DNA of 64,000 nt from Cupriavidus pauculus (GTDB lineage Bacteria; Pseudomonadota; Gammaproteobacteria; Burkholderiales; Burkholderiaceae): assembly GCF_022179805.1 (NCBI RefSeq), contig NZ_BPUO01000004.1, positions 62,001 to 126,000 of the forward strand. Direction: 5' to 3'. The position numbers and the translations under genes are program-made. The notes beneath the pieces are model-generated. The model saw only the letters and a list, made by a program, of their open reading frames with translations. It ran no database searches and was not told where the DNA came from. Below, in pieces: positions 33,351 to 61,593 of this stretch. The number at the start of each line of letters is the position of its first letter. The first letter of the stretch is position 1.

Positions 33351-33841
33351 GGTCATCCACCTCGGAAATCGTTGTCAGGGTAAGTGCTGCCAATCGGGCC
33401 GTTCACGACGCGCCCCAATCCGCGCGACGCGACACACCCCGTCCGACGGAATGCGTTCATCTAATCAAACTTGCATAGGCAAGTGAAGGCCGTCATGTGG
33501 CCTAGACCACTCAGTTGAGGTGGAAGCGCGCTGGCGTGCAGGCGCCGCTACGTACGCGAGCACACGTAGTCGTGTTGCATGTCCCGAAGCAACATCAATA
33601 CTTCCTTCCATCGGGTCGTGCGTCGACGAAATCGGTCACGCTGCCGGCGTGAAGGAAATCGGGAGCCACGCTCAAGCCAGCATGACCCTTGAAGGCCACC
33701 AGCCGGTGGACCTTCCCATGAAAAGAACAACCATCGAGCCATGCAGAACCGCTTGCACCCAATCCTTTGTCCCTCGGGGTATCCGGACGCCTGTCCGGTA
33801 GTCGTCGGACGTCGTCCCATCACGGCATGGGGTAGCGGCAA
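33351..33841. other. divergent EPS promoter region
   Basis: These 490 bp separate the minus-strand DegT unit from the plus-strand 4,6-dehydratase unit. They hold the conserved EPS element (33459-33510, minus), an ACTTGC-atag-GCAAGT dyad inside its spacer (33469-33484), and a GAAGGCCACC/GGTGGACCTTC hairpin (about 33691-33715). No gene was identified. Confidence 0.6.
33459..33510 (-). promoter_or_regulatory. conserved EPS promoter element, copy 1
   Basis: On the minus strand, GTGGTC-TA-GGCCAC (33510-33497) is followed after exactly 29 bp by TGATTAGAT (33467-33459). The 29-bp spacing equals that in the copies at 44085, 49784 and 61464. TGnTTAGAT resembles an extended -10 box; the palindrome would then be centred near -52. 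It faces the DegT-PAP2-GNAT unit, whose start is 108 bp further on. Confidence 0.75.
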
Positions 33842-35857
33842 ATGATCAAATGGTTCTCGCAATGGCTGACCGCCCTGCCAAGACGCCGCAAGACCGCGAT
33901 CATGATTTCAGCCGATCTGCTCGCCTTGCCCCTGTGTTTCGGCTTTGCACTGTTCCTGCGCGCCGGCAACTTCGAACTGCTCGAGCGGTACGGCGTCACG
34001 CCACCGCTGATCATCGCCGCCTGCACGATTCCCGTGTTCTCCTTGAGCGGGCTGTACCGGACAGTCGTCAGGTACTTTGACCTGAAGGTCCTGTGGACGA
34101 CCGGCGCCAGCCTGGCCTGTCTGGTCGGGCTGACCTATGGGCTGTCGTTCCTCATACATCTGGACAGTCTGCCCCGCACCGGCTTGCTGATCTACTGGTT
34201 CATCGCCTTTGCCTATGTAGTGATCTCGCGCTTTGTCGCACGGGCGTTGCTGACACGCTCGCAGCAGGTCCGGAGTGCGCAGCCCGGGCCCTCGGCCTCG
34301 CGCGTGGGCATCTTCGGCGCCGGCGAAGCGGGCTTCCAGCTCGCCATTGCCATGCGTGCCAGCCTAGGCCACAAGGCCGTCTGCTTCTTTGACGACGACT
34401 TCACGCTCGACGGCAAGGTCTTTGCCGACCTGCGCGTCTATCACAGCAACCAGATGCGCGAGCAGATCCGACTGCACGCCATCAATGAAGTCGTGCTGGC
34501 CGTTCCAAGCCTGCCGGTCGAGCGTCGCCGCCAGATCGTTGACAAGCTGCACCGCTATTCGGTCAGCGTTCGCATGCTGCCGACCTTGCTCGAACTCGTG
34601 GACCGCAAGATCACCGTGCAGTCCATCCGCGACGTCCGGGTGGAGGATCTGCTGGGCCGCGACATCGTCCCGCCGCGAGAAGACCTGTTCGCCAAATGCA
34701 CGCAACGCAAGACGGTCATGGTCACCGGCGCGGGTGGCTCCATCGGGAATGAGCTGTGCCGGCAGATCGCCACGCAGGAGCCGCAGCGCCTCATCCTGTT
34801 CGACCACTCCGAATACGCGCTCTATACGATCGAACAGGAACTGCGCCAACGCTATCCTGAACTGCCGATCACGGCCCGGATCGGCTCGGTGTGCGACGCC
34901 GAAGCTGTCTCGGCCGCATTGCGCGGCCAGCAGGTGGACACCATCTATCACGCGGCGGCCTACAAGCATGTGCCGTTGGTGGAAGGGAACATGTCCGAGG
35001 GCATCCGCAACAATGTGCTGGGCTCTCTGACCATTGCCGACCTGGCGGACCACTTCGGCGTCGAGACCTGCGTGCTGATCTCCACCGACAAGGCGGTCCG
35101 CCCCACCAATGTCATGGGTGCAAGCAAACGGACTGCGGAACTGATCTTTCAAGCCGCTGCCGCCCGTCCCAATACCAGAACCACGTTCTCGATGGTGCGT
35201 TTTGGCAATGTCCTGGGCTCGTCCGGGTCGGTGGTGCCACTGTTCCGCAAGCAGATCCGTGCGGGCGGGCCCATCACCATCACGCATCCCGATGTCATCC
35301 GCTTCTTCATGCTGATCCCGGAAGCTGCCCAGTTGGTAATCCAGGCCGGCGCGATGGCGAAAGGCGGGGAGGTCTTCGTGCTGGACATGGGGCAGCCGGT
35401 GCGCATCATCGACCTTGCCCGCACGATGATCGAGATGTCCGGGCTGGTGGAAAAGACACGCAAGAACCCCGCCGGCGACATCGAAATCAAGGTCGTGGGG
35501 TTGCGTCCGGGCGAGAAGCTTTTCGAAGAGCTCCTGATCGGTGGCGAGGTGACGCCCAGTAGGCACGAGCGCATCCTGTGCTCGAACGAACCGTTCCTCG
35601 AAGCCTCCGTGTTGCATGCCAAGCTCGATCGCCTGTTCGCGGCCTGCGAGACCCGCGACGAACTGGAGATCCAGATCGCGATACAGAGTCTGGTCTACGA
35701 ATACACCCCCTACAGCTCCCTGGATTCGCCCGCCCGCAAGGCCGTGGCAACGACTCCGCCGTCGTCGCGCGCCCCGGCATCGCGCTGGCACCCGCCCTCG
35801 GAAGCCGACGTGGACCTGCCGCAGGCCACGTTGTCCAATCCGAGCGAGGCTGGCTGA
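33842..35857 (+). CDS. membrane-bound UDP-GlcNAc 4,6-dehydratase (WbpM/PglF/CapD family)
   Basis: This 671-residue protein is of full WbpM length. It has four predicted membrane helices (about residues 15-130), a CoA-binding-like domain (GIFGAGEAGFQLA, about 155), and a C-terminal extended SDR domain. The NAD motif TGAGGSIG lies near 294, with YHAAAYKHVPLVE, STDKAVRPTNVMGASKR (the family's M-x3-K in place of Y-x3-K) and RFGNVLGSSGSVVP. It makes UDP-4-keto-6-deoxy-GlcNAc, the precursor of diamino-trideoxy sugars. It is the first gene of a plus-strand EPS unit and is divergent from a DegT aminotransferase. The C-terminal ~60 residues are Ala/Pro-rich. Confidence 0.93.
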   Translation: MIKWFSQWLTALPRRRKTAIMISADLLALPLCFGFALFLRAGNFELLERYGVTPPLIIAACTIPVFSLSGLYRTVVRYFDLKVLWTTGASLACLVGLTYGLSFLIHLDSLPRTGLLIYWFIAFAYVVISRFVARALLTRSQQVRSAQPGPSASRVGIFGAGEAGFQLAIAMRASLGHKAVCFFDDDFTLDGKVFADLRVYHSNQMREQIRLHAINEVVLAVPSLPVERRRQIVDKLHRYSVSVRMLPTLLELVDRKITVQSIRDVRVEDLLGRDIVPPREDLFAKCTQRKTVMVTGAGGSIGNELCRQIATQEPQRLILFDHSEYALYTIEQELRQRYPELPITARIGSVCDAEAVSAALRGQQVDTIYHAAAYKHVPLVEGNMSEGIRNNVLGSLTIADLADHFGVETCVLISTDKAVRPTNVMGASKRTAELIFQAAAARPNTRTTFSMVRFGNVLGSSGSVVPLFRKQIRAGGPITITHPDVIRFFMLIPEAAQLVIQAGAMAKGGEVFVLDMGQPVRIIDLARTMIEMSGLVEKTRKNPAGDIEIKVVGLRPGEKLFEELLIGGEVTPSRHERILCSNEPFLEASVLHAKLDRLFAACETRDELEIQIAIQSLVYEYTPYSSLDSPARKAVATTPPSSRAPASRWHPPSEADVDLPQATLSNPSEAG

Positions 35858-37025: not shown

Positions 37026-37335
37026 TGCATTGGCTGGCGTGACGATGCCTGGTGCGTCGACGTGCCTTGCAATCGCGTCGTCGATGCATCGTGCTGCGCA
37101 GGGATGCGCGGTCACCCCCCCTCTGTTCGGATGCTGGGCATACCACCTGGCCCGCGTCCGTGCGGCCGCGCACATTGCCGGCGCGCCGCAACGTTGTGTG
37201 CGGGCGACAACAATGCCCGCATCTCTGCAGGACCGGAAGTTTCTAGAATCCAAGCACGGCTGATCAATCCAGCGCTGTCAGCTTGCACGCCAGTCCGACT
37301 CAAGCGAGTTCAACCACAAATCTTCTGATTCCATT
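37026..37335. other. intergenic gap with no identified gene
   Basis: This is a 310-bp gap inside the plus-strand EPS genes. Short frames on both strands have no Shine-Dalgarno. A TTGTGTG/CGACAA partial dyad (37194-37210) and TTCTAGAAT (37241-37249) may be part of a promoter for the following wbp genes; they do not match the four-copy EPS element. Confidence 0.35.
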
Positions 37336-44084: not shown

Positions 44085-44136
44085 GTGGGCTGGCCCACGC
44101 ATCCGCCTACCCAAGTCGCGGCGGATTTGGTTAGAT
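44085..44136 (+). promoter_or_regulatory. conserved EPS promoter element, copy 2
   Basis: GTGGGC-TG-GCCCAC (44085-44098) is followed after exactly 29 bp by TGGTTAGAT (44128-44136). It has the same layout as the copies at 33459 (minus), 49784 and 61464. It starts the polymerase unit; the leader would be about 150 nt. Confidence 0.75.
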
Positions 44137-44290: not shown

Positions 44291-45520
44291 ATGAAGCACG
44301 GCAAACTCTCGCTGTTTGGCAGCGTCGTCTTCCTCACACTCTTTCCGGGCTATTTCTACTACCACAGCGCGGTCGCCGCCGGCGTGATATCGCCCGTGCT
44401 GGGGGGCTTCTTCGGTCCGATGTCGGTCTACCTTGGCGTCCCGATGGTGGTCTTCGGCTTCGGTACGCTGGCACGCGGGCGCGAGCCAATCCTGTTTATC
44501 GATCGGGCGTTCGTGCTCTACGTGATCTTCATCATGGTCTGGATCACGCTGCACTACGTGCTCGGTTCCGGTGAGCAGAAGTCCGCCGACTTCTATTCGT
44601 ATAACGTGAGCACGGTTTTCATGTGGATGGCGGTCTACATGGCGGTCAGGAATCTGGATCTGAACAGAAAGTGGATACGCTGGGCGCTCTCCATTTCACT
44701 GCTTCTGTTCCTTGCCATCGCCGCGTGGTCCTCGAACGGGCAGTTCTACGATACCGCGCAGATTGCCGGTGATGCCGTGCGGGTCTCCGGCTATCAGGGC
44801 CTGGCCCGTTCTGCCGTGGTCGTCGCGCTTGCCGCGATGGCATTCCACCGCGGCCTGCGTGCCGTACTGGTGATCCTGATCACCGTACCGCTGCTATTCC
44901 TGCTCGGGGCACGAAGCGAGTTCGTGGCATTTCTCGTCGTGGCCGCGGCGCTCTTCGCGCTTCGGGACGGCGTATCGCCGACCACGCTGATCTGGGTGCC
45001 GTTGGGCGTTGCCGGACTCGTCTATCTGGCTGTCAGCTTCCATATCTTCGAAGGCGGTTCGCGCATCCTGCAGCTTCTGGAAATCCGGGAATCGAGTTCC
45101 TATCAGGCCCGACAGGAATTGCAGCAGTTCGCCGTCAGGGCCATCGTGGAGCATCCGGTGCTCGGCAGTTACGCGTCCCAGCTTGAGCTCGGCGAGATGG
45201 GGGACTACGCGCACAACGCCCTCTCCGCATGGGTCAGCTTCGGGCTGGCCGGCTTTCTGGGCTTCGTATTCCTGCTTGGCTATGCCTTGGTGCAATCGGT
45301 TCGGCTAGCCCGCAAGGGCTACGCGGCGGAACCGGAAGTGGCGCTCGCGCTGGCCTTCAGCATCTATACCGTGACCTTGGCGGCCACCGCCAAATCCGTC
45401 AACGACCCGATTTTCGCCTTGGCATGGGGCGCAATCGCCTGCGCACTGCGCAAGCGCAGGCGAGCGGCCACCCGGCCTGTGCTCGTGCCGTACGCAGGTC
45501 AGGAAGCTGCACGGTCCTGA
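44291..45520 (+). CDS. wzy: O-antigen/EPS polymerase (Wzy-like)
   Basis: This is a 409-residue integral membrane protein with about ten hydrophobic helices and a long loop before the last ones. The loop has SSYQARQELQQFAVRAIVEHPVLGSY and YAHNALSAWVSFGLAGFLGF, the H-N and P-x-G-x pattern of Wzy_C/O-antigen ligase-type polymerases. It would join lipid-linked repeats in the periplasm. It is the first gene after the conserved element at 44085. Sequence alone cannot separate polymerase from ligase, but its place in a Wzx/Wza/Wzc locus favours polymerase. Confidence 0.8.
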   Translation: MKHGKLSLFGSVVFLTLFPGYFYYHSAVAAGVISPVLGGFFGPMSVYLGVPMVVFGFGTLARGREPILFIDRAFVLYVIFIMVWITLHYVLGSGEQKSADFYSYNVSTVFMWMAVYMAVRNLDLNRKWIRWALSISLLLFLAIAAWSSNGQFYDTAQIAGDAVRVSGYQGLARSAVVVALAAMAFHRGLRAVLVILITVPLLFLLGARSEFVAFLVVAAALFALRDGVSPTTLIWVPLGVAGLVYLAVSFHIFEGGSRILQLLEIRESSSYQARQELQQFAVRAIVEHPVLGSYASQLELGEMGDYAHNALSAWVSFGLAGFLGFVFLLGYALVQSVRLARKGYAAEPEVALALAFSIYTVTLAATAKSVNDPIFALAWGAIACALRKRRRAATRPVLVPYAGQEAARS

Positions 45521-45557
45521 CGGCCCGCGGCCAGCTTGCGACAACCGTCATTCATTG

Positions 45558-46523
45558 ATGATTGAGCATATGGACATCAAGCAAAGGAAATACAGGGAGC
45601 TCTGCGAGAGCGAACGTTCCATCCCGCTGTCCAGCCGGGCCTGGTGGCTGGACGCGACGGTTGGGGCCGACCGCTGGAGCGTCGCCCTGGTGGAGCGCGG
45701 CGGCAAGGTGATTGCCGCGATGCCCTATGTCAAGAAGAAGAGGTATGGCTTTGTCATCCTTACCCAGCCTCGCTCCGGACACGGATTGGGTCCATGGCTG
45801 GCATGCGAGGATGCAAAGCCGGCGAGAGTGCTGGGCCAGCAGAAGGAACTGATGACGGACCTGATCGAGCAACTGCCGAGGTTCGACCATTTCGTGCAGG
45901 CCTGGGACTACAACCATACCAACTGGCTGCCCTTTTGCTGGAAGGGGTTCCGTCAGACCACCAAGTACACCTATGTGCTCGATGACCTGTCGGATTCGGA
46001 TGCGATCTGGAACGGCATGCAGCCCAACATCCGCGCCGAGATCCGCAAGGCGTCCACGCGCCATGGCCTCGAGGTTCGAGACGACCTGGATATCGAAGAG
46101 TTCATCACGCTGAACAAGCAGGTCTTCGAGCGGCAGGGCATGGCGCTGCCCTATACGGAGGATTACGTCCGCCGCCTTGACGCCGCATGCGTGGCACGCG
46201 GCGCGCGCAAGATCTTCATTGCCGTGGACAAGGAAGGCCGTCGCCATTCCGGTGTCTATCTGGTCTGGGATGGGCAGGTTGCCTACTACCTGATGGGCGG
46301 CTCGGACCCCGCGCTTCGGACCAGCGGCGCGGCCAGCCTGTGCATGTGGGAAGCGATCCGCTTCGCCTCGGGCGTGGCACGCACCTTTGACTTCGAAGGA
46401 TCGATGCTGGAACCGGTCGAGCGCTTCTTCCGGGCGTTCGGTGCCGAGCAGAAGCCGTATTTCCTCATCACGAAGACACCATCCAAGGCGATCTCGCTGT
46501 ATCAGCACATACGTTCCCGATAG
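45558..46523 (+). CDS. GNAT/FemAB-like acyltransferase (EPS copy B)
   Basis: This 321-residue protein is the paralogue of the 35904-37025 protein and lacks its N-terminal extension. Long identical segments exist even at DNA level (around 45915-45975 versus 36405-36465). Shared motifs include HTNWLPFCWKGFRQTTKYTYV, EIRKAS-RHGLEVRDDL and FDFEGSMLEPVERFFRAFGA. It probably acylates a different position or sugar of the polymer. ATG 45558 was chosen; TTG 45555 and ATG 45570 are alternatives without clear Shine-Dalgarno support. It is 37 bp downstream of wzy. Confidence 0.78.
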   Translation: MIEHMDIKQRKYRELCESERSIPLSSRAWWLDATVGADRWSVALVERGGKVIAAMPYVKKKRYGFVILTQPRSGHGLGPWLACEDAKPARVLGQQKELMTDLIEQLPRFDHFVQAWDYNHTNWLPFCWKGFRQTTKYTYVLDDLSDSDAIWNGMQPNIRAEIRKASTRHGLEVRDDLDIEEFITLNKQVFERQGMALPYTEDYVRRLDAACVARGARKIFIAVDKEGRRHSGVYLVWDGQVAYYLMGGSDPALRTSGAASLCMWEAIRFASGVARTFDFEGSMLEPVERFFRAFGAEQKPYFLITKTPSKAISLYQHIRSR

Positions 46524-46574
46524 CCATGCCGCCGGGAAGGCAGAGCGCCCAAGCATTGACAAGGAGATGCGGCA

Positions 46575-48167
46575 ATGACCCAGCACAACGGAAGCGCCCG
46601 TCGCCCTCTTGCGCCCCGTCTTGCGCGCGCGCTGCTGCGCGCCGGTAGCCTGGCTGTACTGCTGGCCTGTACCGTGCCGTCGGCGCAGGCGCAAGTGCAG
46701 TCAGGCGGGTTGATGCCAGCCGCACTGGACTGCGGCGGCCCTGTCGAAGACCTGGTCTGGCGCCGCTGGGATGGGGATCCCAGGCGAAATGGAGAAGGCG
46801 GCGCGCGCGTTTTCGTGGAACAGCAGCTGATCGCGGACCGCTTGCTGAAGCAGGGCGACACCTATGCGCTCTATCACTTCGAGATCTATTTCCACAACTT
46901 GCTGGCCATGGCGCAACGTTGCCAGCGCACCGATCGGCAGGCAGAGTTGGCCCACCTGGTTGCGAGTACCTATGCCAAGCTCGAACCCGCGCCCGGTGAT
47001 CAGCCAGGGCGGGCCTGGATCTGCCGTGGTGGTCCGGAATGCACCCACACGCCCCGGCTGCGCGATAAGGAGCTGATGCTCAACAGCACCCAGTTCATGG
47101 CCTTCGCGAGCAGCCTTGCCAACGGCATCAGCCGCGAAAATCGGAAGGGGGCTCGCAACGACTTCGTCGAACAGACGGCAACCATCGCGCGCGAGCACCT
47201 GGAGCGCTGGAACACACCTGCGGCGCAGGATACGTTGCGCAAGCAGATCGCCGCCCGGCCGGAGGATGTGAAAAATACCTCGTCCGCATTGTTCCTGACC
47301 GACAAGGAGCTTTGGCAAATTTCCATCTACGCGGATCTGGCCGGCATGCTGGTCGCACGCCCGCCGCTTGCCCAGTCGGCGGAGCTGAACGCCGCGAGAC
47401 TTGCCGCCATGAAAACGCACCTGGAATTATTGCTGCAACTGGTTGCGGCGCGCACGACCGTGCAGGAGATTCCCGCCCCAAATGACAAGAGCGGCAAGAC
47501 CATCAAGGTGGCCGATCTGGATGCGGGCTTCTGGCGGCTCTATGACACCAACCGGTATGCTGCCTACACCGGACGCGACAAGCCCGTGGTGTGCAAGCGC
47601 GATCCGGTCACGCAGCAGGTCACGGCGCAGACCGTGATCCCTGCCGATCGCTTCGCGCCGGTGGCCAACATCAGCTGGGACATCAGCCACGCACGACGGC
47701 TGGTGCATTTCTTTGATGCCATCGAACGCAATCGCGCGGCGATGGTCCAGGTCTACGGCCTGGACCCCGCGATGTTGCCCTCGCAAGACACCATGGCTGC
47801 CTTCGTGCGCCAGTTCAGTCTTCACGTCTGGAATCGGGATCGGGTTCGCCCGCTATTCACAAACTACTACAGCGGCACCAACGGCTGGTATCGGGTGAAT
47901 TACGACAACGGTACCGGCAGTTGCGCGGAAGGCTATCCACCGTATGGCATCTCGGACTCCTTTCCCACCGGAGGCTATGCGGTATGGCCGTCCATGCACG
48001 AGCAGGGCGTGCGCTTGTTCGATATCACCCAGTCGTTGCGCCTGGAAGACCAGGCCTTCGTCGCGGCCTACTACCCCAACTTTGCGAGGTCGCGCAGCGC
48101 CAGCTCCCGCATGACTGACGAGATGATGTTCTGGCCCACACTGGTGCGGCGCGGCGGCAAGCGCTGA
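46575..48167 (+). CDS. exported protein of unknown function, possibly polysaccharide-active
   Basis: This is a 530-residue protein with an Arg-rich N-terminus, a hydrophobic stretch and a cleavage site AQA/QVQ (about residue 40). A Cys within LLAC could alternatively make it a lipoprotein. The mature protein is helix-rich with repeated Trp/Tyr/His segments (YALYHFEIYFHNLLAM, NISWDISHARRLVHFFDAI, FTNYYSGTNGWYRVNYDNG, GYAVWPSMHEQG). This suggests an alpha-toroid hydrolase or lyase, but I do not recognise the family. Its place between an acyltransferase and a deacetylase in the EPS locus fits a periplasmic polymer-trimming enzyme. The function is inferred only. Confidence 0.65.
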   Translation: MTQHNGSARRPLAPRLARALLRAGSLAVLLACTVPSAQAQVQSGGLMPAALDCGGPVEDLVWRRWDGDPRRNGEGGARVFVEQQLIADRLLKQGDTYALYHFEIYFHNLLAMAQRCQRTDRQAELAHLVASTYAKLEPAPGDQPGRAWICRGGPECTHTPRLRDKELMLNSTQFMAFASSLANGISRENRKGARNDFVEQTATIAREHLERWNTPAAQDTLRKQIAARPEDVKNTSSALFLTDKELWQISIYADLAGMLVARPPLAQSAELNAARLAAMKTHLELLLQLVAARTTVQEIPAPNDKSGKTIKVADLDAGFWRLYDTNRYAAYTGRDKPVVCKRDPVTQQVTAQTVIPADRFAPVANISWDISHARRLVHFFDAIERNRAAMVQVYGLDPAMLPSQDTMAAFVRQFSLHVWNRDRVRPLFTNYYSGTNGWYRVNYDNGTGSCAEGYPPYGISDSFPTGGYAVWPSMHEQGVRLFDITQSLRLEDQAFVAAYYPNFARSRSASSRMTDEMMFWPTLVRRGGKR

Positions 48168-48176
48168 CCGGATGGC

Positions 48177-48195
48177 GGCGCGCCCGTGGCGCGCC
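48177..48195. terminator. hairpin between convergent genes
   Basis: GGCGCGCC-CGT-GGCGCGCC forms a perfect 8-bp stem with a 3-nt loop between the convergent 46575 and 48210 genes. It has no T-run; it may serve as a bidirectional transcription barrier. Confidence 0.45.
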
Positions 48196-48209
48196 GACGC
48201 CACGGCTTG

Positions 48210-49562
48210 TCAGTGGGCGACCACGGCCTGGTACAGCTCGCGCTCACCGGCGTTGCCGAGCGACGAGTTGTGCCACAGCATGGTGAAGCAGCCGTTCACC
48301 GCATTGCACGTTTCCTTCAGTTCGCGGAATTTCTTCCAGGCCGCCTCGCCCGCGCCAAGTCCCATATAGCCCATGACAGTGCCTTCCATGGCGATGAGCG
48401 GGCGAATGCGCAAGTTCAGGGCCTTGCCCGCGACCGGATCGAAGGCCGGATATTCGAAGCAGGTGCCGCAGCGGAAACCGGCGTGATCGGCATAGCTGAG
48501 CGTACTGTCGTAGGTCATGCCAGCCTGCTCCCAACCGAGCATCGTGGTCGGGTGCTCCCAGCGCAGATAGTGCATGCGCCCGCCCCAGACCGCCTGCTCG
48601 ATCTTCTCCTGCTCGCATATCTTCCGCAGCCGATTCGCCTCCGCCTGCACCTCGCAAGGGTCCTGATAGGTATTGAAGCTCGGGTGCAGGCCGATCTCGT
48701 GACCACGGGCGTGGATATGCTTCATCAACCCGCGTATCGCGGGATGCTCCGGCTCGTAGTCCGCATCCTTGCTGGCCTCGGTGCGGCCGCAGATGAAGTA
48801 GAAGGCGCTGACCAGCCCGTGGCGCTCCGAAACATCCATGATCCAGTCGAAGGTGTTGACCCGATCGCTCGGATGCAGCGCGTTGCGCGTTTTCATCCTG
48901 ATGACCGGCGCCTGCAGCACGCTGCGGATGTCACGGCGAATCAGGATATCGCCGGCCATGCGGCGGAGCATCCGCGACGCGGAGCCAAAGCCATAACGAC
49001 TGGGCACATCGACGTCATGCGACACCTTCATGCTGGACTGAAGTTGCTTGAGCGTCAGGGCTGGCCATTGGCGTCCAATCACCTGCCCGAGGATATGCAA
49101 CCACTCGTCCACCACCGGCCGCTCCAGATAGCCGAACTTGTGGGCATGCGAGCCGCTGGCCGGGAAGCGCCCGAAGTTATCCAGGTCGGTGCGTCCAACC
49201 TCCTCCTGGCGCGACAGCATCCAGTAGCAAAGACCCAGGATGTCATAGTGGATTCGATAGCCACCGGGGGTCGTCTCGGTCAGCGGCGAGGGCGCGCGTG
49301 CCAGGCCTGGCGCCGGCAACGGCCCAGGCAGGACCGGCTGCCAGCCCTCCGCACGCGCATCCCAGGTGGTGAAGGCGAGCGCCGAGTCCGCGCGCTGGAA
49401 GGTGACGGGGTCCGCCGCAATCTCGATCGATCCCTCGCTGGAACCGGCAAGGCTCAGGCGGACGGTGCCCGCGTCGGTACCCTGCAACCGAAAGCCATGG
49501 CCAAAGCGCTCCGCAAGAATTTGCTGCAGCCAGGAGAGGATTTCCTCGGTCATTTGCCTCAT
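48210..49562 (-). CDS. polysaccharide deacetylase family protein
   Basis: This is a 450-residue protein with an N-terminal domain of the type found before some NodB domains (about residues 1-190). The NodB-like core has motif 1 as SHDVDVP, motif 2 as GHEIGLHPSFN (His-x3-His) and a late MLWHNSS. Such proteins remove N- or O-acetyl groups from glycans. The lack of a clear signal peptide suggests a cytoplasmic or uncertain location. Start MRQMTEE (49562) was chosen; ATG 49553, with GAGG four bases upstream, is the alternative. It is the only minus-strand gene between 33.8 and 56 kb. Confidence 0.82.
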   Translation of the reverse strand: MRQMTEEILSWLQQILAERFGHGFRLQGTDAGTVRLSLAGSSEGSIEIAADPVTFQRADSALAFTTWDARAEGWQPVLPGPLPAPGLARAPSPLTETTPGGYRIHYDILGLCYWMLSRQEEVGRTDLDNFGRFPASGSHAHKFGYLERPVVDEWLHILGQVIGRQWPALTLKQLQSSMKVSHDVDVPSRYGFGSASRMLRRMAGDILIRRDIRSVLQAPVIRMKTRNALHPSDRVNTFDWIMDVSERHGLVSAFYFICGRTEASKDADYEPEHPAIRGLMKHIHARGHEIGLHPSFNTYQDPCEVQAEANRLRKICEQEKIEQAVWGGRMHYLRWEHPTTMLGWEQAGMTYDSTLSYADHAGFRCGTCFEYPAFDPVAGKALNLRIRPLIAMEGTVMGYMGLGAGEAAWKKFRELKETCNAVNGCFTMLWHNSSLGNAGERELYQAVVAH

Positions 49563-50045
49563 TGGGGAGTTCCAGAGTGAGAAGGCGGGCGCCCTGATGG
49601 ACGACGGCTGTCCACGGCCCGAGCCTGGCATGGACGGTGAAACCGAATGGTCTTACCTCAACCGATGACGCTGATAAGGCGGATTATCGGGACTTGCCAA
49701 CGTGCCCGCAATCAAGCTGGGTGTGACACCGAACGCAAGGCGCGCGCACTTTTCCCGGCCGGGCGCGGGTGCATGCCGGCAGTGTGGCCTGGGCCACACT
49801 AACCGCTTCCACGAGGCTTCTGACTCTGGTTAGATGTTCGCGTGCGGATGAAAAGCCGTTGCTGCGGCAAGGTGTTCCATCCTCCGGCCCCGACCATGGC
49901 TCTGCGCGCCCACATGCGATCGCGGCAAGACCCGCTTTTGTCGGGCCCGCGTCTGCTCCGGTGACCCACCGGGCAGCCCGGGCCGGGCATCCGGGCGACG
50001 TCCAACCATGACACGCGCGCCAGCATCCAACAAACCTGTCCCTCC
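49563..50045. other. divergent promoter region before the export genes
   Basis: About 480 bp with no convincing gene. It contains the conserved EPS element at 49781-49835, leaving a leader of about 205 nt before the glycosyltransferase start at 50046. The long leader may carry further control. Confidence 0.55.
49781..49835 (+). promoter_or_regulatory. conserved EPS promoter element, copy 3
   Basis: AGTGTGGCC-TG-GGCCACACT (49781-49800) is the longest dyad of the set, with 9-bp arms. From its core GTGGCC..GGCCAC (ending 49797) a 29-bp spacer leads to TGGTTAGAT (49827-49835). It faces the glycosyltransferase-wza-wzb-wzc unit. Confidence 0.78.
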
Positions 50046-51317
50046 ATGAAGCACGTCTGGATTCTCAACCACTATGCCCAGGAACCCGGTAGCGGCCCCG
50101 GCGGCACGAGACACTACCACCTGGCCGAGCACCTGAGCGCGTCCGGCTGGCAGGCAACCGTTATCGCGGCCAACTCGGTCGGCACAAGGGAACGACAACA
50201 GGTGACAGGCAAGTTGTCGCAACTCGAGCGCATTCGCGATGTCGCGTTCCTGTGGGTACGTACGCCCCAATACGAAGGCAATGGCGTCGGCCGTATCCTC
50301 AACATGCTGACTTACAGTTGGCGCGCCTTGCGGCGGCAGACCACGCGCGACTTGCCGCGTCCCGACGTGGTGGTCGGCTCCAGCGTGCACCCGTTTGCCG
50401 CGGCGGCGGGCGCGCTGCTGGCACACCGCTTCAAGGTTCCGTTCGTGTTCGAGGTGCGTGACCTGTGGCCTCAGACGCTGGTGGACATGGGTCGCCTGCG
50501 CGAAGGCGATTTCCTGACCTGGGCGCTGCGCAAGCTCGAGCTTTGGCTATACCGGCGCGCCACCCGCATCGTCGTGCTGCTGCCGCATGCGTGGGAGTAC
50601 ATCGCACCGCTGGGCATCCCGAAGGCGCACATTGCCTGGATTCCCAACGGGGTGGACCTGTCGCTATTCCCGCCGCCCACGCCCGCACGCGCCGTGGCCC
50701 CGACCGAGCCCTTCACGCTGATGTATTTCGGTGCGCACGGGCAGGCCAACGGCCTGGAGAACGTGCTGCACGCAATGAAGCTGGTACAGGATCGGCCCGA
50801 GGGGCAGCACATAATCCTACGCATGGTCGGCGATGGCGGCCTCAAGCCTGCGCTGATGGCGCAGGCACAGCAACTCGGCCTGAGCAATGTCATCTTTGAG
50901 CCGCCCGTACCGAAAACCCACATTCCGACGGTGGCAATGGAGGCCGATGCCTTCGTGATCGCCGTGCGTGACCTGCCACAGCTGTACCGGTACGGCATCA
51001 GCATGAACAAGCTGTTCGACTACCTGGCTGCAGGCCGGCCCATCGTCATGGCCTCCAGTGCCGCCAACAATCCGGTGGCCGACGCGGCGGCCGGGTTGAC
51101 GGTAGCTGCGGAGCAGCCCGAGGCCCTGGCCGACGCCATCATCCGTATCGCCTCGACGCCGCTCGAGGCGCGCCAGCGCATGGGACGCGCCGGGCGCGAG
51201 TACGTCGAGCGCCACCACAGCTTCCAGCTGCTGGCACAGCACCTGGCAGGGGTGCTGGACGAAGCATGCAGAGCCCAGGAAGACCCGGTCCCTCATCAGC
51301 ATGAACAGGCGGTTTGA
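50046..51317 (+). CDS. GT4-family glycosyltransferase (WbuB-like)
   Basis: This is a 423-residue GT-B glycosyltransferase. It opens with WILNHYAQEPGSGPGGTRHYHLAEHL, as in WbuB-type N-acetyl-aminosugar transferases. It has FVFEVRDLWPQTLVDMG, WIPNGVDL, and a C-terminal YRYGISMNKLFDYLAAGRPIV carrying the nucleotide-ribose contact. The start ATG 50046 begins a unit that continues into wza, wzb and wzc. It likely transfers a deoxy-amino sugar such as FucNAc or QuiNAc. Confidence 0.9.
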   Translation: MKHVWILNHYAQEPGSGPGGTRHYHLAEHLSASGWQATVIAANSVGTRERQQVTGKLSQLERIRDVAFLWVRTPQYEGNGVGRILNMLTYSWRALRRQTTRDLPRPDVVVGSSVHPFAAAAGALLAHRFKVPFVFEVRDLWPQTLVDMGRLREGDFLTWALRKLELWLYRRATRIVVLLPHAWEYIAPLGIPKAHIAWIPNGVDLSLFPPPTPARAVAPTEPFTLMYFGAHGQANGLENVLHAMKLVQDRPEGQHIILRMVGDGGLKPALMAQAQQLGLSNVIFEPPVPKTHIPTVAMEADAFVIAVRDLPQLYRYGISMNKLFDYLAAGRPIVMASSAANNPVADAAAGLTVAAEQPEALADAIIRIASTPLEARQRMGRAGREYVERHHSFQLLAQHLAGVLDEACRAQEDPVPHQHEQAV

Positions 51318-51575
51318 CCGCCTGTCCACTTGCCCCCCCACGTCACGGCCGCGCCGCGCCTGTCCAGGCCGGGCGCCGGCCGCTGACAGGTTGAGCGCAA
51401 CCGGCGCATCCAGCCGCCGGCAAGGGTTGGAAGGACCTGTACCGGCCCGCGCACCTTCGCCAAAACCCAACGTGCGACAACGCACCGATGCATGGTACGG
51501 CCCCTCCTACGATACGAACCATCGGGGCATCGCCTATGCGGTGCGATGTCCACTGCCTTCAGTAAGGAGACCACC

Positions 51576-52748
51576 GTGAGACCAGTCAATTGGGGCATGC
51601 ATTTCCGGAGCATCCTTGCTACCCATCGCCGCGACATCGCTTCCCGCCTGTTCATGCTCGCCGCCACCGGTCTGCTGGCCGCCTGCTCGGCATCGCCGGG
51701 CATGTACTTTGACAACAAGGCAGTGGTGAGCGCCATCGGTCCCGATGTCGTGCCCAAGGTGACACCGATCACCCTCGACCTGGTGAATGCCCAGCGCGGC
51801 AAGCCCCGTATGGACAACCTGCGCGTCGACGAACTGTTCGCCACGCCGCAGCCGTATCTGATCGGCCCTGGCGACATCATTTCGGTCGTCGTATGGGACC
51901 ACCCCGAACTGGTGTTTCCCACGCAGACCTACAGCATCGGCGCCGCCTTCGAGATGCCGACGTCCAGCGGCGGCTCCAACGTACCGGGCTATGTGGTCAG
52001 CGCACAGGGCGATGTGCAGTTTCCCTACGCTGGCGTCATGAAGGTGGGCGGAAAGACCGCCAACGAGGTGCGCGACCAGATGGCGCGTGTCCTGTCGCGC
52101 GTCGTCAGGAACCCGCAGATGACGGTGCGGGTGCTCGGCTTCCGTAGCCAGCGTGTCTACGTGGACGGCGAGGTCAAGACGCCCGGCATGCAGGCGATCG
52201 ATGACGCGCCGATGACGCTGGTGGAAGCGCTGAATCGCGCCGGCGGCGTGCTGAACCTGACCGGCGACAACAGCCGCATCCGCGTGACGCGCGGCGAGCG
52301 CAGCTGGTACGTCAACATCCCAGCGCTGCTGTCCAAGGGCATTGACCCGTCCCGCATCCTGCTGCGCTCGGGCGACATCGTCCGCGTGGAACAGCGCGAG
52401 GACAACAAGATCTTCGTGACGGGCGAAGTCGTGCGCCCGGCATCCCTGCTCATGCGCAACGGCAAGATGACGCTGAACGAGGCACTGGGCGATGCCGGTG
52501 GCGTCAATCCGAGTTCGGCCAATGCGGAGCAGATCTACGTGATTCGCAAGGCGCCCGATGGCGAGCCGAACATCTTCCACCTGGACGGCAACTCGCCGGC
52601 GGCGCTGGCGATTGCCGAGGGATTCGAGCTGGAACCGAAGGACGTGGTGTATGTGGACGCACGCGAAGTGGTCCGCTGGAGCCGCGTGATCAACCAGTTG
52701 TTACCGAGCACGCAGCCTGTGTTCAGTACTGCCACGGCATTCAAGTAG
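51576..52748 (+). CDS. wza: outer-membrane polysaccharide export lipoprotein (Wza/EpsA-like)
   Basis: This 390-residue protein has a lipobox LLAAC, about 30 residues after GTG 51576. It is followed by the Poly_export domain (YLIGPGDIISVVVWDHPEL; GDVQFPYAGVMKVGGKT) and two SLBB domains (VYVDGEVKTPGMQAI; IFVTGEVVRPASLLMRNG). It forms the octameric outer-membrane channel for the polymer. AAGGAG six bases before GTG 51576 decides the start over the longer frame and over ATG 51597. Wzb and Wzc follow immediately. Confidence 0.93.
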   Translation: MRPVNWGMHFRSILATHRRDIASRLFMLAATGLLAACSASPGMYFDNKAVVSAIGPDVVPKVTPITLDLVNAQRGKPRMDNLRVDELFATPQPYLIGPGDIISVVVWDHPELVFPTQTYSIGAAFEMPTSSGGSNVPGYVVSAQGDVQFPYAGVMKVGGKTANEVRDQMARVLSRVVRNPQMTVRVLGFRSQRVYVDGEVKTPGMQAIDDAPMTLVEALNRAGGVLNLTGDNSRIRVTRGERSWYVNIPALLSKGIDPSRILLRSGDIVRVEQREDNKIFVTGEVVRPASLLMRNGKMTLNEALGDAGGVNPSSANAEQIYVIRKAPDGEPNIFHLDGNSPAALAIAEGFELEPKDVVYVDAREVVRWSRVINQLLPSTQPVFSTATAFK

Positions 52749-52752
52749 CCGG

Positions 52753-53226
52753 ATGCGAAATATGACGCGCTCAATCCTGGTGATTTGTATCGGCAACGTT
52801 TGTCGCAGCCCTATGGCGGCTGGCCTGCTGAGCCGTCACATGCCCGCATGCGAAGTGACTTCGGCCGGACTGGCCCCGCCGGTTGGCGCCCCCGCCGATC
52901 CCAGCGCCGTCAAGCTGCTTGCGCGCGAGGGCCTGGATATCGGCAGTCACCGCGCCCGTGCAGTCGATGGCGCACTCGTGGCGGCGGCAGACCTGATTCT
53001 TGTGATGGACAGCGAGCAACGCGAAGAAATCGAGCGCGCTTTCCCCATCGCACGCGGAAAAACCCATCGGATTTGCGAATCCACATCTACTGACGTGCCG
53101 GATCCGTACGGGTGCTCGCCGACCATGTTCTACATCGTTTTAGAACTAATCAAACAGGGCATCGCATCATGGTCTGCAAGGCTCGGAGAGGTTGCACCAA
53201 CTAAGGGTCGAGGAGAGGCATCATGA
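52753..53226 (+). CDS. wzb: low-molecular-weight protein-tyrosine phosphatase (Wzb-like)
   Basis: This is a 157-residue LMW-PTP. The P-loop CIGNVCRSP (nucleophile C12, R18) and the general-acid Asp in DVPDPYG are both present. It would dephosphorylate the Tyr-rich tail of the adjacent Wzc kinase and so cycle polymer assembly. It starts 4 bp after the wza stop, and its own stop overlaps the wzc start as ATGA (53223-53226). ATG 52762 is a possible alternative start. Confidence 0.94.
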   Translation: MRNMTRSILVICIGNVCRSPMAAGLLSRHMPACEVTSAGLAPPVGAPADPSAVKLLAREGLDIGSHRARAVDGALVAAADLILVMDSEQREEIERAFPIARGKTHRICESTSTDVPDPYGCSPTMFYIVLELIKQGIASWSARLGEVAPTKGRGEAS

Positions 53227-55445
53227 GAACGGTCAGCACCCGGGATCCGGGCCCGGCAAGCGTCGACGAACAGCAGAGCACGGTGGACTTTACCGCCTAC
53301 ATCGATCTGCTGGCCCGCTATCGAAAGACCTTCCTGCTCGTCATAGGCATCGCCATCGTGATCGGCATCACCTATGCCATGCTCGCGAAGCCCGTCTACC
53401 GCACGAACATGACGGTGCAGGTGGAGGAATTGGGCGGCAACCACGTCAGCAAGCTCATCGCCGCCTTCTCGCAGGGCCCCGAAACCAAGCCCGCCGCTTC
53501 CGCGGAGATCGAACTCCTGCGCTCGCGCATGGTGGTCGGCAAGGCGTTCGACAACCTGCAGCTGTACATCGATGCCTCACCGCGCTACTTCCCCGTGATT
53601 GGCGCGTCGATCGCCGGCTTCAATCATGAGCTGTCGCACCCCGGGTTGTTTGGATGGGGTGGCTTTGCGTGGGGCCATGAGTCGATTACCGTGTCCCAGC
53701 TTGACGTGCCCGCGTCCATGGAGGAGCGCAAGATCCTGCTGACCGCACAGGCTGACAACACCTACAAGGTCCGGTTCGCCAGCGACGATGCCGAGGCGAC
53801 CGGCAAAGTGGGATCGCCATTGACGATCAAGACGGCCCACGGCGCCGTCACCATCCTGGTCAGCCAGATGGATGGACGCCCCGGTACGCAGTTTGTGCTG
53901 CGTCGCCTGGCCCGTGCCGCGGGCATCGCGCGCTTGCAGGAGAAGCTGTCGATCAGCGAGCGCGGCAAGGATAGCGGCGTGCTTGGCGTATCACTGGAAG
54001 GCACTTCGCCGGACATGACGGCGGCCATCCTCAATGAAATCGGCAATGCCTACGTTGACCAGAACATCCGCCGCAAAGCCGCCGAAGCCGAAAAGTCACT
54101 CGCCTTTCTCGAACAACAGTTGCCGCTGCTCAGGCAGCAGGTCGACACGTCCGAGACCAAGTACAACGCGATGCGCAATCAACGCGGCACGGTCGACCTT
54201 GGCGAGGAATCCAAGCTGATCCTGGGCCAGTCGGTACAGATTCAGACCAAGCTGCAGGAGTTGCAGCAAAAGCGGCAGGAACTGGCGGCGCGATTCACGC
54301 CAACGCACCCTGCGATCTCACTCGTCGACGGTCAGATCTCCAGCCTCACCGCCCAGTTGAACGGTGTCACCGGACGGATCCAGAAGCTGCCGGAGGTGGA
54401 ACAGAACGTGGTGCGCCTGATGCGCGACGTCAAGGTCAGCACCGAGATGCTGCAGTCCCTGCTCAACGACGTCCAGCAGCTCAAGCTGATCAAGGCGAGC
54501 AAGGTGGGAACGGCGCGGATCGTCGACCCGGCAGACCCGCCGCTCAGGCCCGTCCGGCCGGATCGGGTGCTCATCGTCGGGCTATCGCTGGCGCTGGGCG
54601 TGGTGGCTGGCCTGCTGGTGATCTTCGTGCGCCATACGCTCGAAGGCGGCGTGGCCGACCCGGACGAGATCGAGCGGCAGACGGGGATGACGGTCTACTC
54701 GACGATCCCCTTCAGCAAGCAACAGTCGCATCTGTCACCGGGCGCCGGCCTCCTGGCACTCCAGCAGCCGGACGATCCCGCCGTGGAGAGTTTGCGCAGC
54801 TTCCGTACCGCATTGCGTTTCGCTATGGCAGGGAGCAAGAACCGGACCGTGGTGATCACCGGGCCTGCCCCGGGCGTCGGCAAGTCCTTTATCTGTACCA
54901 ACTTTGCCGCGATCGCCGCCACCGGACTCCGCGTGGTGCTAGTCGATGCCGACCTGCGCCGTGGCAGTCTGCAGAGTTCCTTCGATACCAGGCGTGGTCC
55001 CGGCTTGACCGAACTGCTGATGGGCGCGCCCCTGGAACAGGTGTTGCAGCGGCAGGTGGCGCCCGGTCTGGATTTCATACCGACCGGCTCCCAACCCCCG
55101 CACTCGACGGATCTGCTACTGAGCCCCACCATGGACTCCCTGCTCGAGCAGCTCAAGGCGCGCTATGACGTCGTGCTGATCGACACACCGCCCGTGCTGG
55201 TGGCTGCCGACGCAGGCATTCTGGCAGGCAAGGCTGGCGCCGTGTTTCTCGTGGCGCGTGCCGAAAAGACCACGACCGCCGAACTGCTGGCGTCGCAACG
55301 CGCCATCCTGCAGGCCGGCGCCGATGTCAAGGGCGTACTGTTCAACGGGCTTCTGATCGAGGGACGCTGGTACCGCGCCCACAGCTACTTTGGCAAGTAC
55401 CGCTATCTCGCCGACTACGGCAACGGGCAGACCAAGCGGGCTTAG
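53223..55445 (+). CDS. wzc: tyrosine-protein kinase / chain-length regulator (Wzc-like)
   Basis: This is a 740-residue inner-membrane bacterial tyrosine kinase fused to a Wzz domain. It has TM1 near residues 36-55, a large periplasmic region with coiled coil (about 280-400), and TM2 near 440-460. The cytoplasmic kinase follows, with Walker A GPAPGVGKSF, A' VVLVDADLRR and Walker B VVLIDTPPV. The C-terminus holds a Tyr cluster (WYRAHSYFGKYRYLADYG), the autophosphorylation site. It pairs with Wza and Wzb. A second kinase-domain protein begins at the far right of the window, without such a cluster. Confidence 0.95.
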   Translation: MRTVSTRDPGPASVDEQQSTVDFTAYIDLLARYRKTFLLVIGIAIVIGITYAMLAKPVYRTNMTVQVEELGGNHVSKLIAAFSQGPETKPAASAEIELLRSRMVVGKAFDNLQLYIDASPRYFPVIGASIAGFNHELSHPGLFGWGGFAWGHESITVSQLDVPASMEERKILLTAQADNTYKVRFASDDAEATGKVGSPLTIKTAHGAVTILVSQMDGRPGTQFVLRRLARAAGIARLQEKLSISERGKDSGVLGVSLEGTSPDMTAAILNEIGNAYVDQNIRRKAAEAEKSLAFLEQQLPLLRQQVDTSETKYNAMRNQRGTVDLGEESKLILGQSVQIQTKLQELQQKRQELAARFTPTHPAISLVDGQISSLTAQLNGVTGRIQKLPEVEQNVVRLMRDVKVSTEMLQSLLNDVQQLKLIKASKVGTARIVDPADPPLRPVRPDRVLIVGLSLALGVVAGLLVIFVRHTLEGGVADPDEIERQTGMTVYSTIPFSKQQSHLSPGAGLLALQQPDDPAVESLRSFRTALRFAMAGSKNRTVVITGPAPGVGKSFICTNFAAIAATGLRVVLVDADLRRGSLQSSFDTRRGPGLTELLMGAPLEQVLQRQVAPGLDFIPTGSQPPHSTDLLLSPTMDSLLEQLKARYDVVLIDTPPVLVAADAGILAGKAGAVFLVARAEKTTTAELLASQRAILQAGADVKGVLFNGLLIEGRWYRAHSYFGKYRYLADYGNGQTKRA

Positions 55446-55528
55446 CCAGGCGACGGCGGCTGGGGTTTTCGTCCAGCCGTCGTCAGCTGCCGAACTGGAA
55501 CGCCGCTTCGCCTCAGTACCAACACGTC

Positions 55529-56197
55529 ATGCCACTCATTCAAGCAAATGCCGTCTCATCCGTTGTCATCGCCGGTTCAGGCGGTCTCGGGCTGGAGCTC
55601 TACGATTATTTGCAGGTCGAAGCACACCGCGGCGGACCATCGGTGGCAGGCTTTATCGATGACACACCGGACAAGGTGCCGGACGGCATAGACCTGCCAA
55701 ATCTGGGCCCGATCCGGCAGTTTCGACCAGCGCCGCACCAGGCCGTGCTGGTGGCGATCGCCGCCACCCAGGTACGGCAAGACGTGCTGTCGTGGCTCCT
55801 GGAAATCGGGGTCGAGGTGCCCAGCTACGTCCATGACACGGCCGTCGTATCGCCCTGCTCCCGTCTGGGCATCGGCGCATTGATCTTTCCGTTCACGGTC
55901 ATCAGCCGGGACGCGGTGGTGGAGGATGGCGTGGTGGCCAATGCCGGCTGCGGAATCGGGCATGGTGCCCGGGTGGGTGCGTGCTCCGTGCTGTCTCCGC
56001 ACGCCGTGCTCAACGGCAACTCCGCCATCGGACCGCGGTGCTTTCTGGGGACGCGTGCGACGCTATTCCCTGGCACCAGCATCGGCGCGGACTGCGTGGT
56101 CGATTCCCATACCTGCGTGTCGACCAGCGCCAAGGACCGGAAATTCATCACGACTCGCGCGGTCCAGATGACTTCGCGAGTGATTCGCGATCAGTGA
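55529..56197 (+). CDS. NeuD/PglD-family sugar O- or N-acetyltransferase
   Basis: This 222-residue protein has an N-terminal Rossmann-like nucleotide-sugar-binding domain (VVIAGSGGLGLELYDYL) and a C-terminal left-handed beta-helix of hexapeptide repeats (about residues 105-210). This two-domain order is that of PglD, which N-acetylates UDP-4-amino-sugar, and of NeuD. With the 4,6-dehydratase (33842) and the DegT aminotransferase (32112) it could complete UDP-N,N'-diacetylbacillosamine synthesis. It is 83 bp after wzc on the same strand. Confidence 0.82.
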   Translation: MPLIQANAVSSVVIAGSGGLGLELYDYLQVEAHRGGPSVAGFIDDTPDKVPDGIDLPNLGPIRQFRPAPHQAVLVAIAATQVRQDVLSWLLEIGVEVPSYVHDTAVVSPCSRLGIGALIFPFTVISRDAVVEDGVVANAGCGIGHGARVGACSVLSPHAVLNGNSAIGPRCFLGTRATLFPGTSIGADCVVDSHTCVSTSAKDRKFITTRAVQMTSRVIRDQ

Positions 56198-59072: not shown

Positions 59073-59870
59073 TCAGCCATGGTTGTCCCGCGCCAGTTCG
59101 TACGCCGTGGTACGAATGACGCCTCCGCTGTCCTTCACCTCGCAGAGCAGCCGCGTCGACAAGACCTTGAGGTTGAACGGCGGCGCGGTCAGCTCGATCG
59201 CGCTCGGCTTCTCGCCCCAGAGTCGGAGCGCGGAGCCGATGGGCTTGTCGAGGTTTGGTGTGAAGCCGGGTGTCGCTGGCGAGTACTCCGTCAGGATCAG
59301 TATCCTGTACGGCGTCAGGCGGGCCAGTACTTCGGCGATGAGCGCGTTATCCAGGTGATCCAGTACCTGGCGCAGGAACACGACGTCGCCTGCCGGCAAG
59401 GGCTCGCTGGTAATGTCGACGCACCGGAAGTCCACATCCAGGCCCGCGAACCGGGTGCGGTTCGACCGGACGACCGGCTCCACCACGTCGCACGCGATAT
59501 AGCGCGCGCAAGCGGGTCGAATGCGCTTGCCGATATTGAAATCACCGCACCCAAGATCCACGACGTCAGGCCGACTCGGCATCGATGCCAGGTAGGCCGT
59601 CACGGCCTTGACATAGGTGTCGACGATCGTCGGGTCATGGGAGCTGCTTCCGCTGTAGAACTCCGCGGGGTCCTCCGCCACGCCCCAGGCGCCGGTTTCA
59701 TAGACATTGGAAAACACCTCGCGCAGCGTCTTGCCTTGATATCTCGCCCCGTCCTTGCGGATGATCCGGTTGTGGTGGTAGTTCAGCAGCCACGTGGGCG
59801 CGTATGGCTTCACCCACTGCTTGAGCTTTGTCGTCAACACACTACGCATGGGCCTGCTCAGCGAATTCAT
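59073..59870 (-). CDS. class I SAM-dependent methyltransferase
   Basis: This 265-residue protein has the SAM-binding motif I VVDLGCGDFNIG (about residue 105), an acidic strand end ACDVVEP, DITSEPLPAGDVVFLRQVLDHLDN as motifs II/III, and a long N-terminal cap. Its place among EPS modification genes suggests O-methylation of a sugar or polymer end, but the acceptor is unknown. It starts 45 bp after the flavoprotein gene on the same strand. Confidence 0.85.
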   Translation of the reverse strand: MNSLSRPMRSVLTTKLKQWVKPYAPTWLLNYHHNRIIRKDGARYQGKTLREVFSNVYETGAWGVAEDPAEFYSGSSSHDPTIVDTYVKAVTAYLASMPSRPDVVDLGCGDFNIGKRIRPACARYIACDVVEPVVRSNRTRFAGLDVDFRCVDITSEPLPAGDVVFLRQVLDHLDNALIAEVLARLTPYRILILTEYSPATPGFTPNLDKPIGSALRLWGEKPSAIELTAPPFNLKVLSTRLLCEVKDSGGVIRTTAYELARDNHG

Positions 59871-59915
59871 GGTGTCTCCTACTGTTCTTGCGGGAATGTT
59901 GAGAACCCTGCCAGC

Positions 59916-61247: not shown

Positions 61248-61593
61248 TGCTTCTCCCATTGAACTTGCGCGTCGGCCCTTGCGGGTCTGCGCAGTACAAG
61301 ATGCCTTGATCGCTGGCATCAGCGCCTGGCCAGTCATGTCACGTCAATCTAGAGGCAGCCGCCCCTGTCATCCGTGCGGGCGCCCACACATGACCGATCT
61401 CGCGTCGCAATCTTCAATGTTGAGCGGTCCACCGTTCTTGCACGATCCGCCGCACGGCAGTACGTGGCCTCGGCCACATTTCCGCGCTTCACGCAGCAGC
61501 CCGGCATGGTTAGATTGACTCCGGAGCGGATATCCGTTGTCTGTCCAGGGACGACTGCGAGCATCGCTCCTGGACAAACCAGACAGATCGATC
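61248..61593. other. divergent promoter region of the right EPS module
   Basis: These 345 bp lie between the minus-strand flavoprotein gene and the plus-strand sugar transferase gene. They contain the conserved EPS element (61464-61515, plus) and a GTGCGGGC/GCCCACAC dyad (61374-61389) that could serve the minus gene. No gene was identified. Confidence 0.55.
61464..61515 (+). promoter_or_regulatory. conserved EPS promoter element, copy 4
   Basis: GTGGCC-TC-GGCCAC (61464-61477) is followed after exactly 29 bp by TGGTTAGAT (61507-61515), as in the other three copies. It faces the sugar transferase/ATP-grasp unit; the leader would be about 70 nt. Confidence 0.77.

Follow-up and report, generated by a model that had tools for sequence, protein, structure and literature searches.

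Probable promoter elements in the exopolysaccharide locus

The exopolysaccharide (EPS) genes analysed here lie in a 64-kb window, positions 62001-126000 on contig 4 (C4) of a 6.8-Mb Cupriavidus genome (G000), and four of their transcription units are preceded by the same bipartite, putative promoter element. This element, here called type A, consists of a 14-bp palindrome, 29 bp of spacer and a TGRTTAGAT box (32 bp from palindrome to TTAGAT), 52 bp in all. Coordinates without a genome handle refer to the window.

Element 1 is on the minus strand at 33459..33510, with the palindrome at 33497-33510, a -35-like hexamer TTCACT at 33482-33487 (minus strand) and the box TGATTAGAT at 33459-33467. It stands before a minus-strand unit (30289..33356) of DegT (32112-33356), PAP2 (31399-32109) and GNAT/FemAB-like (30289-31365) genes. 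The other three elements and their units are on the plus strand. Element 2 (44085..44136; palindrome 44085-44098, TGGTTAGAT at 44128-44136) precedes a wzy-like gene in a unit at 44291..49580, which also encodes a GNAT protein and two proteins without a Pfam match. Element 3 (49784..49835; palindrome 49784-49797, TGGTTAGAT at 49827-49835) precedes the unit at 50046..56197 with a glycosyltransferase, Wza, Wzb, Wzc and a hexapeptide transferase. Element 4 (61464..61515; palindrome 61464-61477, TGGTTAGAT at 61507-61515), in which the -35-like element is displaced by 1 bp, precedes a bacterial sugar transferase (likely start ATG 61594) and an ATP-grasp gene (61594..63404). Pfam confirmed the units named in the initial annotation with one reservation: the wzy assignment is only sub-threshold, with 23.7 bits for the Wzy_C-like PF04932 against a cut-off of 31.7.

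All four copies reported by the initial annotation were recovered without a mismatch and in intergenic DNA, with 0.00 copies expected and none of 100 shuffles giving a match, and every TTAGAT word of the window falls within them. A gapped search of the genome, with the palindrome allowed 20-40 bp before TTAGAT, returned exactly these four, always at 32 bp, and no match to the reversed pattern. The genome has 63 GTGGNCNNGNCCAC sites in total, compared with 22 for the reversed-pattern control. It has 11 TGRTTAGAT boxes, four of which have the palindrome at the same offset and are the four elements; the other seven have no GTG-N8-CAC within 80 bp upstream. An exact search of the 6.8-Mb genome found no copy at the same spacing in unrelated coding DNA, and tolerating up to three mismatches at the fixed spacing added one poor match in the whole genome. 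The proposed restriction of the element to EPS genes in this genome is supported.

Recurrence in related genomes

A free-gap search of 60 genus genomes (25-33 bp before TTAGAT) found exact matches in five, and all eight matches were at 32 bp. At the fixed spacing and with up to two mismatches, nine of 398 genomes of the family (59 of the same genus and 339 from 24 other genera) have a match. All nine belong to Cupriavidus, the element was found in none of the 339 genomes of other genera, and the reversed pattern gave no match. With up to three mismatches at the fixed spacing, matches are present in 13 of the 60 genus genomes, compared with four reversed-pattern matches (G027, G030, G037, G058). 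Eight of these 13 were judged real from their box, and a ninth genome, G033, was added from the 398-genome search. The matches in G003, G014, G039, G053 and G058 and one poor match each in G024, G038 and G042 were set aside as chance because their boxes differ; the one in G038 overlaps a coding match to the regulator R2 described below.

In total, 31 type-A elements are listed in 12 region sets of nine genomes. In G026, G038, G032 and G015 they precede orthologous genes, namely DegT, the wzy-like gene, glycosyltransferase-wza and the sugar transferase as located by tblastn, and several genomes have an extra type-A site before ATP-grasp. A position matrix trained on 17 of the found sites was scanned over fifteen 20-kb stretches and the window and gave sites of 38-65 bits and none between 12 and 38; these scores are partly circular because of the training set, and the free-gap search and the other-genera search with reversed control are more independent tests. 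Wider scans found a few decayed copies, scoring 27.8-39.8 bits, in which the left half-site is missing, the palindrome has eroded or the box has changed. Other spacings, scanned in the 12 region sets, gave three matches, of which two overlap a true element and one, in R15b, scores 17.1 bits. The palindrome-N29-box architecture is real and conserved.

Two observations concern the arrangement of the copies. G032 has two identical type-A elements 7.5 kb apart (G032:C2:1685395 and 1692939), in a duplicated stretch of wzy-region genes. In G015, G024, G033, G042 and G059 a set of FAD oxidoreductase, sugar transferase and ATP-grasp genes is also found away from the main EPS locus. This stand-alone set carries its own type-A elements and palindromes of the second class defined below (type B), in a neighbourhood largely common to the five genomes (partly in G015).

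Anatomy of the type-A element

In 17 aligned sites, columns 1-3 (GTG), columns 12-14 (CAC) and column 6 (C) are invariant, and a few further sites outside these 17 deviate from GTG-N8-CAC. A two-fold symmetric site with a GTG-N8-CAC core has the geometry of a CRP/FNR operator. The E. coli consensus TGTGA-N6-TCACA is not matched: the base after GTG is G in 13 of the 17 sites, so type A is not a standard E. coli CRP site.

The spacer, which the initial annotation had called otherwise little conserved, keeps a -35-like CTTCAC in columns 23-28 and an A/G-T/C flank after the palindrome. Among the four window copies most spacer positions do differ, while the palindrome, the -35-like element and the box are kept. 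TTGACA-likeness, scored over gaps of 8-27 bp, is maximal at gap 9 (mean 3.0 of 6), a hexamer that was not a selection criterion in most sites and that leaves a 17-bp spacer to TTAGAT. This distance falls within the 16-18 bp between the -35 and -10 elements of sigma70 promoters, with the TTAGAT register being partly by construction. The TGRTTAGAT box itself is near-invariant across sites, consistent with the extended -10-like box that had been predicted for it. If TTAGAT is assumed to occupy -12 to -7, the palindrome would be centred at -51.5, in agreement with the earlier placement of an operator near -52. A sigma54 reading of TGG...GC was rejected, as columns 19-22 have no conservation.

Sister promoters and a second class of putative operator

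No type-A element above 13 bits is present in what was fetched of 14 region sets, which come from 13 other genomes of the genus. Six of these sets (G019, G020, G037, G039, G043 and G050) nevertheless keep the promoter core before the orthologous sugar transferase, with a -35-like TTCACAG or a close variant, a 17-bp spacer and then TTAGAT, TTTCAT or TTACAT. In all six promoters compared, the palindrome GTGG-N6-CCAC (0-1 mismatches) is positioned 40 bp, not 29 bp, before the box. The 11-bp displacement corresponds to one helical turn, with the palindrome centre then expected at -62.5. When spacings of 8-79 bp were allowed (box without the preceding T, with a -35-like hexamer), 40 was found six times and 47 once.

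Besides type A, a second class of palindrome with the GTG-N8-CAC core was found, type B, defined as GTGnG-N4-CGCAC. Two type-B promoters are predicted in the window. One is on the plus strand at 51472..51513 before wza and has GTGCGACAACGCAC, 22 bp and TACGAT (51508-51513), with a predicted centre at about -41.5; the other is on the minus strand at 61346..61387 before the FAD oxidoreductase gene, divergent from element 4, and has GTGGGCGCCCGCAC, 22 bp and TAGATT. They are the only exact matches to the strict type-B pattern in the genome, with two more at one mismatch and one for the control. A type-B-like palindrome at 33552..33565 (minus strand), upstream of element 1, has no -10-like hexamer at 22 bp, and similar palindromes are found in the corresponding region of G015, G026, G032, G038 and G042. 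Another at 37160..37173, upstream of a UDP-glucose/GDP-mannose dehydrogenase gene, has no such hexamer at 22 bp in either direction.

The wza promoters of 11 region sets, those of 19 with a listed wza match, align on GTG-N8-CAC. GTGyG-N4-CGCAC is present in 10 of the 11 (G017 differs), followed after 22 bp (23 in G017) by a -10-like hexamer that is often TACGAT. P59, P24a and the element-bearing sets fall outside both this alignment and the comparison of six shifted promoters. Most of 11 aligned loci also have a type-B palindrome at the acyl-carrier/acyl-CoA dehydrogenase operon.

In the fetched genus regions the type-B pattern has 101 intergenic and 17 coding oriented matches, many of them orthologous and with symmetric sites counted in both directions, where intergenic DNA makes up 0.25 of 1.26 Mb. 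Intergenic counts are approximate because genes were called with our own codon-score script. Among palindromic 4-mer dyads (spacers 2-14, at least 12 intergenic matches), GTGC-N6-GCAC ranks first by enrichment score (44 intergenic, 46 coding). There are 71 oriented type-B sites near a gene start, 58 of them non-redundant, and 31 of the 58 have a good -10 at gap 22, compared with at most four at any other gap from 8 to 44, which points to a centre near -41.5. The right half-site CGCAC of type B also occurs in some type-A sites.

A candidate regulator at the locus

A search for the Pfam helix-turn-helix (HTH) family PF13545 found eleven stretches of the genome over the cut-off. One is a CRP/FNR gene on the minus strand (G000:C4:129379-130194), 3.4 kb beyond the end of the window, whose product has both PF13545 and PF00027 above cut-off. 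Its predicted structure has a mean predicted local distance difference test (pLDDT) score of 79.8, and a fold search with this model matches the CRP family, GlxR first. In a profile alignment its R-E pair aligns with the R-E pair of GlxR; R and E at these recognition-helix positions presumably read GTG. GlxR binds TGTGANNTANNTCACA (PMC4254451).

Of 31 region sets fetched, 21 contain an orthologue of this CRP-like protein; the remaining 10 stop short of that end of the locus or lie elsewhere. The gene is present in at least 39 of the 60 genus genomes (22 of them from the homologue listing), with none lacking it among the matches listed. At 13 loci of other Burkholderiaceae we found CRP homologues of 48-69% identity, 12 of them with LGVRREG[VI]TEA. 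Type-B palindromes occur in 10 of the 13 20-kb stretches around these homologues, one of them 22 bp from TTAAAT; this count comes without control loci and does not distinguish intergenic from coding positions, and in Cupriavidus coding DNA the type-B pattern occurs about 0.34 times per 20 kb. In a separate case of another genus (G141, locus L197 on G141:C12), a CRP-like gene of 90% identity has similar neighbours and type-B palindromes, which suggests gene transfer.

Proposed mechanism and alternative explanations

From these sequence comparisons the four elements are likely activator-dependent promoters, with activation and the -10 and -35 assignments being inferred. We propose that they form one Cupriavidus module, a CRP/FNR-activated promoter that co-ordinates EPS genes, and we regard this proposal as evenly balanced between right and wrong. 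In this model a dimeric activator of the CRP/FNR type would occupy the GTG-N8-CAC palindrome at about -51.5 and from there bring RNA polymerase to TTCAC-N17-TTAGAT. The positions -41.5, -51.5 and -62.5 are each about one helical turn apart, so that a bound activator could contact the same face of the polymerase from all three. The binder may be the CRP/FNR protein encoded at the locus, the least certain step; this protein is the leading, if unproven, candidate. The outcome would be co-ordinated export (wza-wzb-wzc), polymerisation (wzy), priming sugar transfer and modification. The initial annotation had left open whether an activator or a repressor binds; a palindromic operator near -52 is supported, and the second class near -41.5 and the orthologous variant near -62.5 would favour an activator. 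More tentatively, one locus-encoded CRP/FNR activator may use two operator classes at three phased positions, with the main class at -51.5 and its almost invariant extended -10 implying a new mode of contact to the polymerase.

Several observations weigh against this proposal. Scoring every offset puts the best -10-like hexamer at gap 32 in 22 of 23 sites, but selection of the sites for TTAGAT accounts for part of this peak, and 11 of the 23 also pass with a second -10-like register at gap 27 (TTTGAT type). TTAGAT matches TATAAT at three of six positions, and intergenic enrichment of the GTGG-N6-CCAC dyad is no more than 2.1-fold (28 intergenic and 53 coding matches). The half-sites of types A and B differ outside GTG and CAC, with the C of column 6 also invariant in type A. 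The six sister promoters represent a single orthologous promoter, with two sequences almost the same, and so record one event six times. Three of the 13 loci in other genera are without a type-B palindrome. The CRP-like gene and the regulator gene R1 (below) are near-universal in the genus and type A was found in only nine genomes, so co-occurrence singles out no binder. Finally, E. coli CRP activates weakly near -50 at sigma70 promoters and is optimal at -49.5 at the sigma28-dependent aer promoter (PMC2859248).

The palindrome might instead be the operator of a LuxR/NarL-type regulator, either R1 or the paralogous R2 encoded at the opposite end of the EPS locus; we consider this unlikely. R1 is a GerE/LuxR-type regulator by Pfam, encoded at the edge of the locus (29280..30230, plus strand), and R2 is of the LuxR/NarL type (G000:C4:138448-139266). 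R1 adjoins the element 1 operon and is kept beside the orthologous DegT/GNAT block in G015, G026, G032, G038 and G042; it has a GerE HTH, and LuxR/NarL-family dimers also bind inverted repeats. If R1 were the binder, the operator should be present where the regulator is, but an R1 copy (54-100% identity) is found in 57 of the 60 genus genomes (G006 and G047 have partial pieces and G058 a weak match only) and type A in nine. R1 as sole binder by adjacency is weakened accordingly. The invariant columns GTG and CAC are those of CRP sites, and a better LuxR-type candidate is an 18-bp palindrome, CTCATnC-N4-GnATGAG, which recurs just downstream of R2 before a -10-like box. In none of the 14 loci of other genera (the 13 and G141) was a match to R1 or R2 found.

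Further features were observed around the two regulators. In the Cupriavidus loci examined, R1 and R2 stand on either side of the variable EPS region, resembling the constant ends of capsule loci, and the receiver-like half of R1 is without the usual aspartate context (DLLVFGMP). The 18-bp palindrome, a possible LuxR-type operator, is at G000:C4:138372-138389 (locus L066), and in G050 TACGTT follows about 21 bp on. The other enriched dyads, CTCA-N10-TGAG, TGAA-N6-TTCA and ATGA-N8-TCAT, are found for the most part close to R2 or R1. In several genomes (e.g. G032:C2:37269) the dyad ATGAC-N6-GTCAT, with AATCCTTTAAG after it, recurs about 280 bp upstream of R1.

A dedicated alternative sigma factor could read CTTCAC-N17-TGRTTAGAT, with the palindrome as an auxiliary site and the fixed spacing reflecting contact with the holoenzyme; this is distinctly unlikely in our view. 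The near-invariance of the box speaks for it, as does the core CT-N19-TGRTTAGAT, for which the genome has no matches other than three of the four elements (in the remaining one it is offset by 1 bp). It would also fit that CRP works best near -50 at a sigma28 promoter (PMC2859248). On the other side, the spacing and the -35-like TTCAC fit sigma70, and orthologous promoters exchange TTAGAT for TTTCAT or TTACAT with palindrome and -35 kept, which speaks for ordinary sigma70. No sigma factor scored above the Pfam cut-off in a scan confined to 30 open reading frames of the window, with the rest of the genome left outside this search.

Next in order, and improbable, is that the palindrome is bound by another CRP/FNR-family protein or another regulator encoded elsewhere in the genome. 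Ten other stretches of the genome exceed the CRP HTH cut-off, although some are incomplete or belong to other HTH families, and the stand-alone sugar transferase and ATP-grasp set that carries the element has no regulator gene within it (its flanking genes were not annotated). However, of six readable CRP/FNR helices only that of the locus-encoded protein has the R-E pair at the GTG-reading positions (two loci could not be resolved).

It is very improbable that the palindrome is a repressor site or that its conservation reflects a recent functionless duplication: G032 does have identical copies in its duplicated stretch, but the window copies have diverged at most spacer positions with palindrome, -35-like element and box retained, and the placement upstream of -35 and the one-turn shift fit activation. 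Two other systems were discarded. For the Ralstonia-type EPS regulators VsrC and XpsR, literature titles and abstracts contain nothing on this motif, and JUMPstart/ops (of the GGCGGTAG type, known from EPS leaders) is at chance level, with nine matches of up to one mismatch against 5.22 expected, a number reached by nine of 100 shuffles; its sole exact match (18095) is outside the EPS units.

Comparison with known systems and significance

Like the class I and class II CRP promoters of E. coli, the CRP/FNR-type promoters proposed here have a GTG-N8-CAC core, predicted positions near -41.5 and -61.5 and sigma70-like -35 and -10 elements 17 bp apart. They differ from them in the predicted main position at -51.5, in the G that mostly replaces A after GTG and in the near-invariant TGRTTAGAT. 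With positions predicted from the boxes, type B (-41.5) and the sister promoters (-62.5) would fit the usual CRP/FNR placement at -41.5 or -61.5 and type A (-51.5) would lie between; the unusual part is this -51.5 position together with the near-invariant box. As E. coli CRP is weak near -50, either the Cupriavidus protein would contact the polymerase differently or another sigma factor or regulator would be involved. At the sigma28 aer promoter, too, one CRP-type site lies at an intermediate position (-49.5), between those of class I and class II (PMC2859248); the Cupriavidus elements differ in their sigma70-like -35/-10 spacing and in forming a multi-operon EPS module.

The closest functional precedent is BerA (Bcam1349) of the related genus Burkholderia, a CRP/FNR regulator that responds to cyclic di-GMP and controls exopolysaccharide genes, in the accessible parts of PMC5552954 and PMC3584217, which do not give a BerA binding motif. 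The proposed likeness is one of function, CRP/FNR control of an EPS cluster; the Cupriavidus protein has the CRP/FNR fold and domains of this type. Its best fold match is GlxR of Corynebacterium glutamicum, with which it shares the aligned R-E pair and, if it binds the palindrome, a GTG...CAC operator; it differs in sequence (about 18% identity) and in that GlxR is a cyclic AMP regulator of other genes. No published description of this EPS promoter motif was found in literature titles and abstracts, where subscription journals are poorly covered.

Cupriavidus is a genus used in metal and polymer biotechnology, and the CRP/FNR-activated module, if true, would provide a testable promoter code for EPS control in it. 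An activator site that moved by one turn between orthologous promoters would be a natural trace of the limits that helical phasing sets on their evolution. Should a CRP-family protein indeed act from -51.5 with sigma70, a further case would have to be added to the class I/class II scheme.

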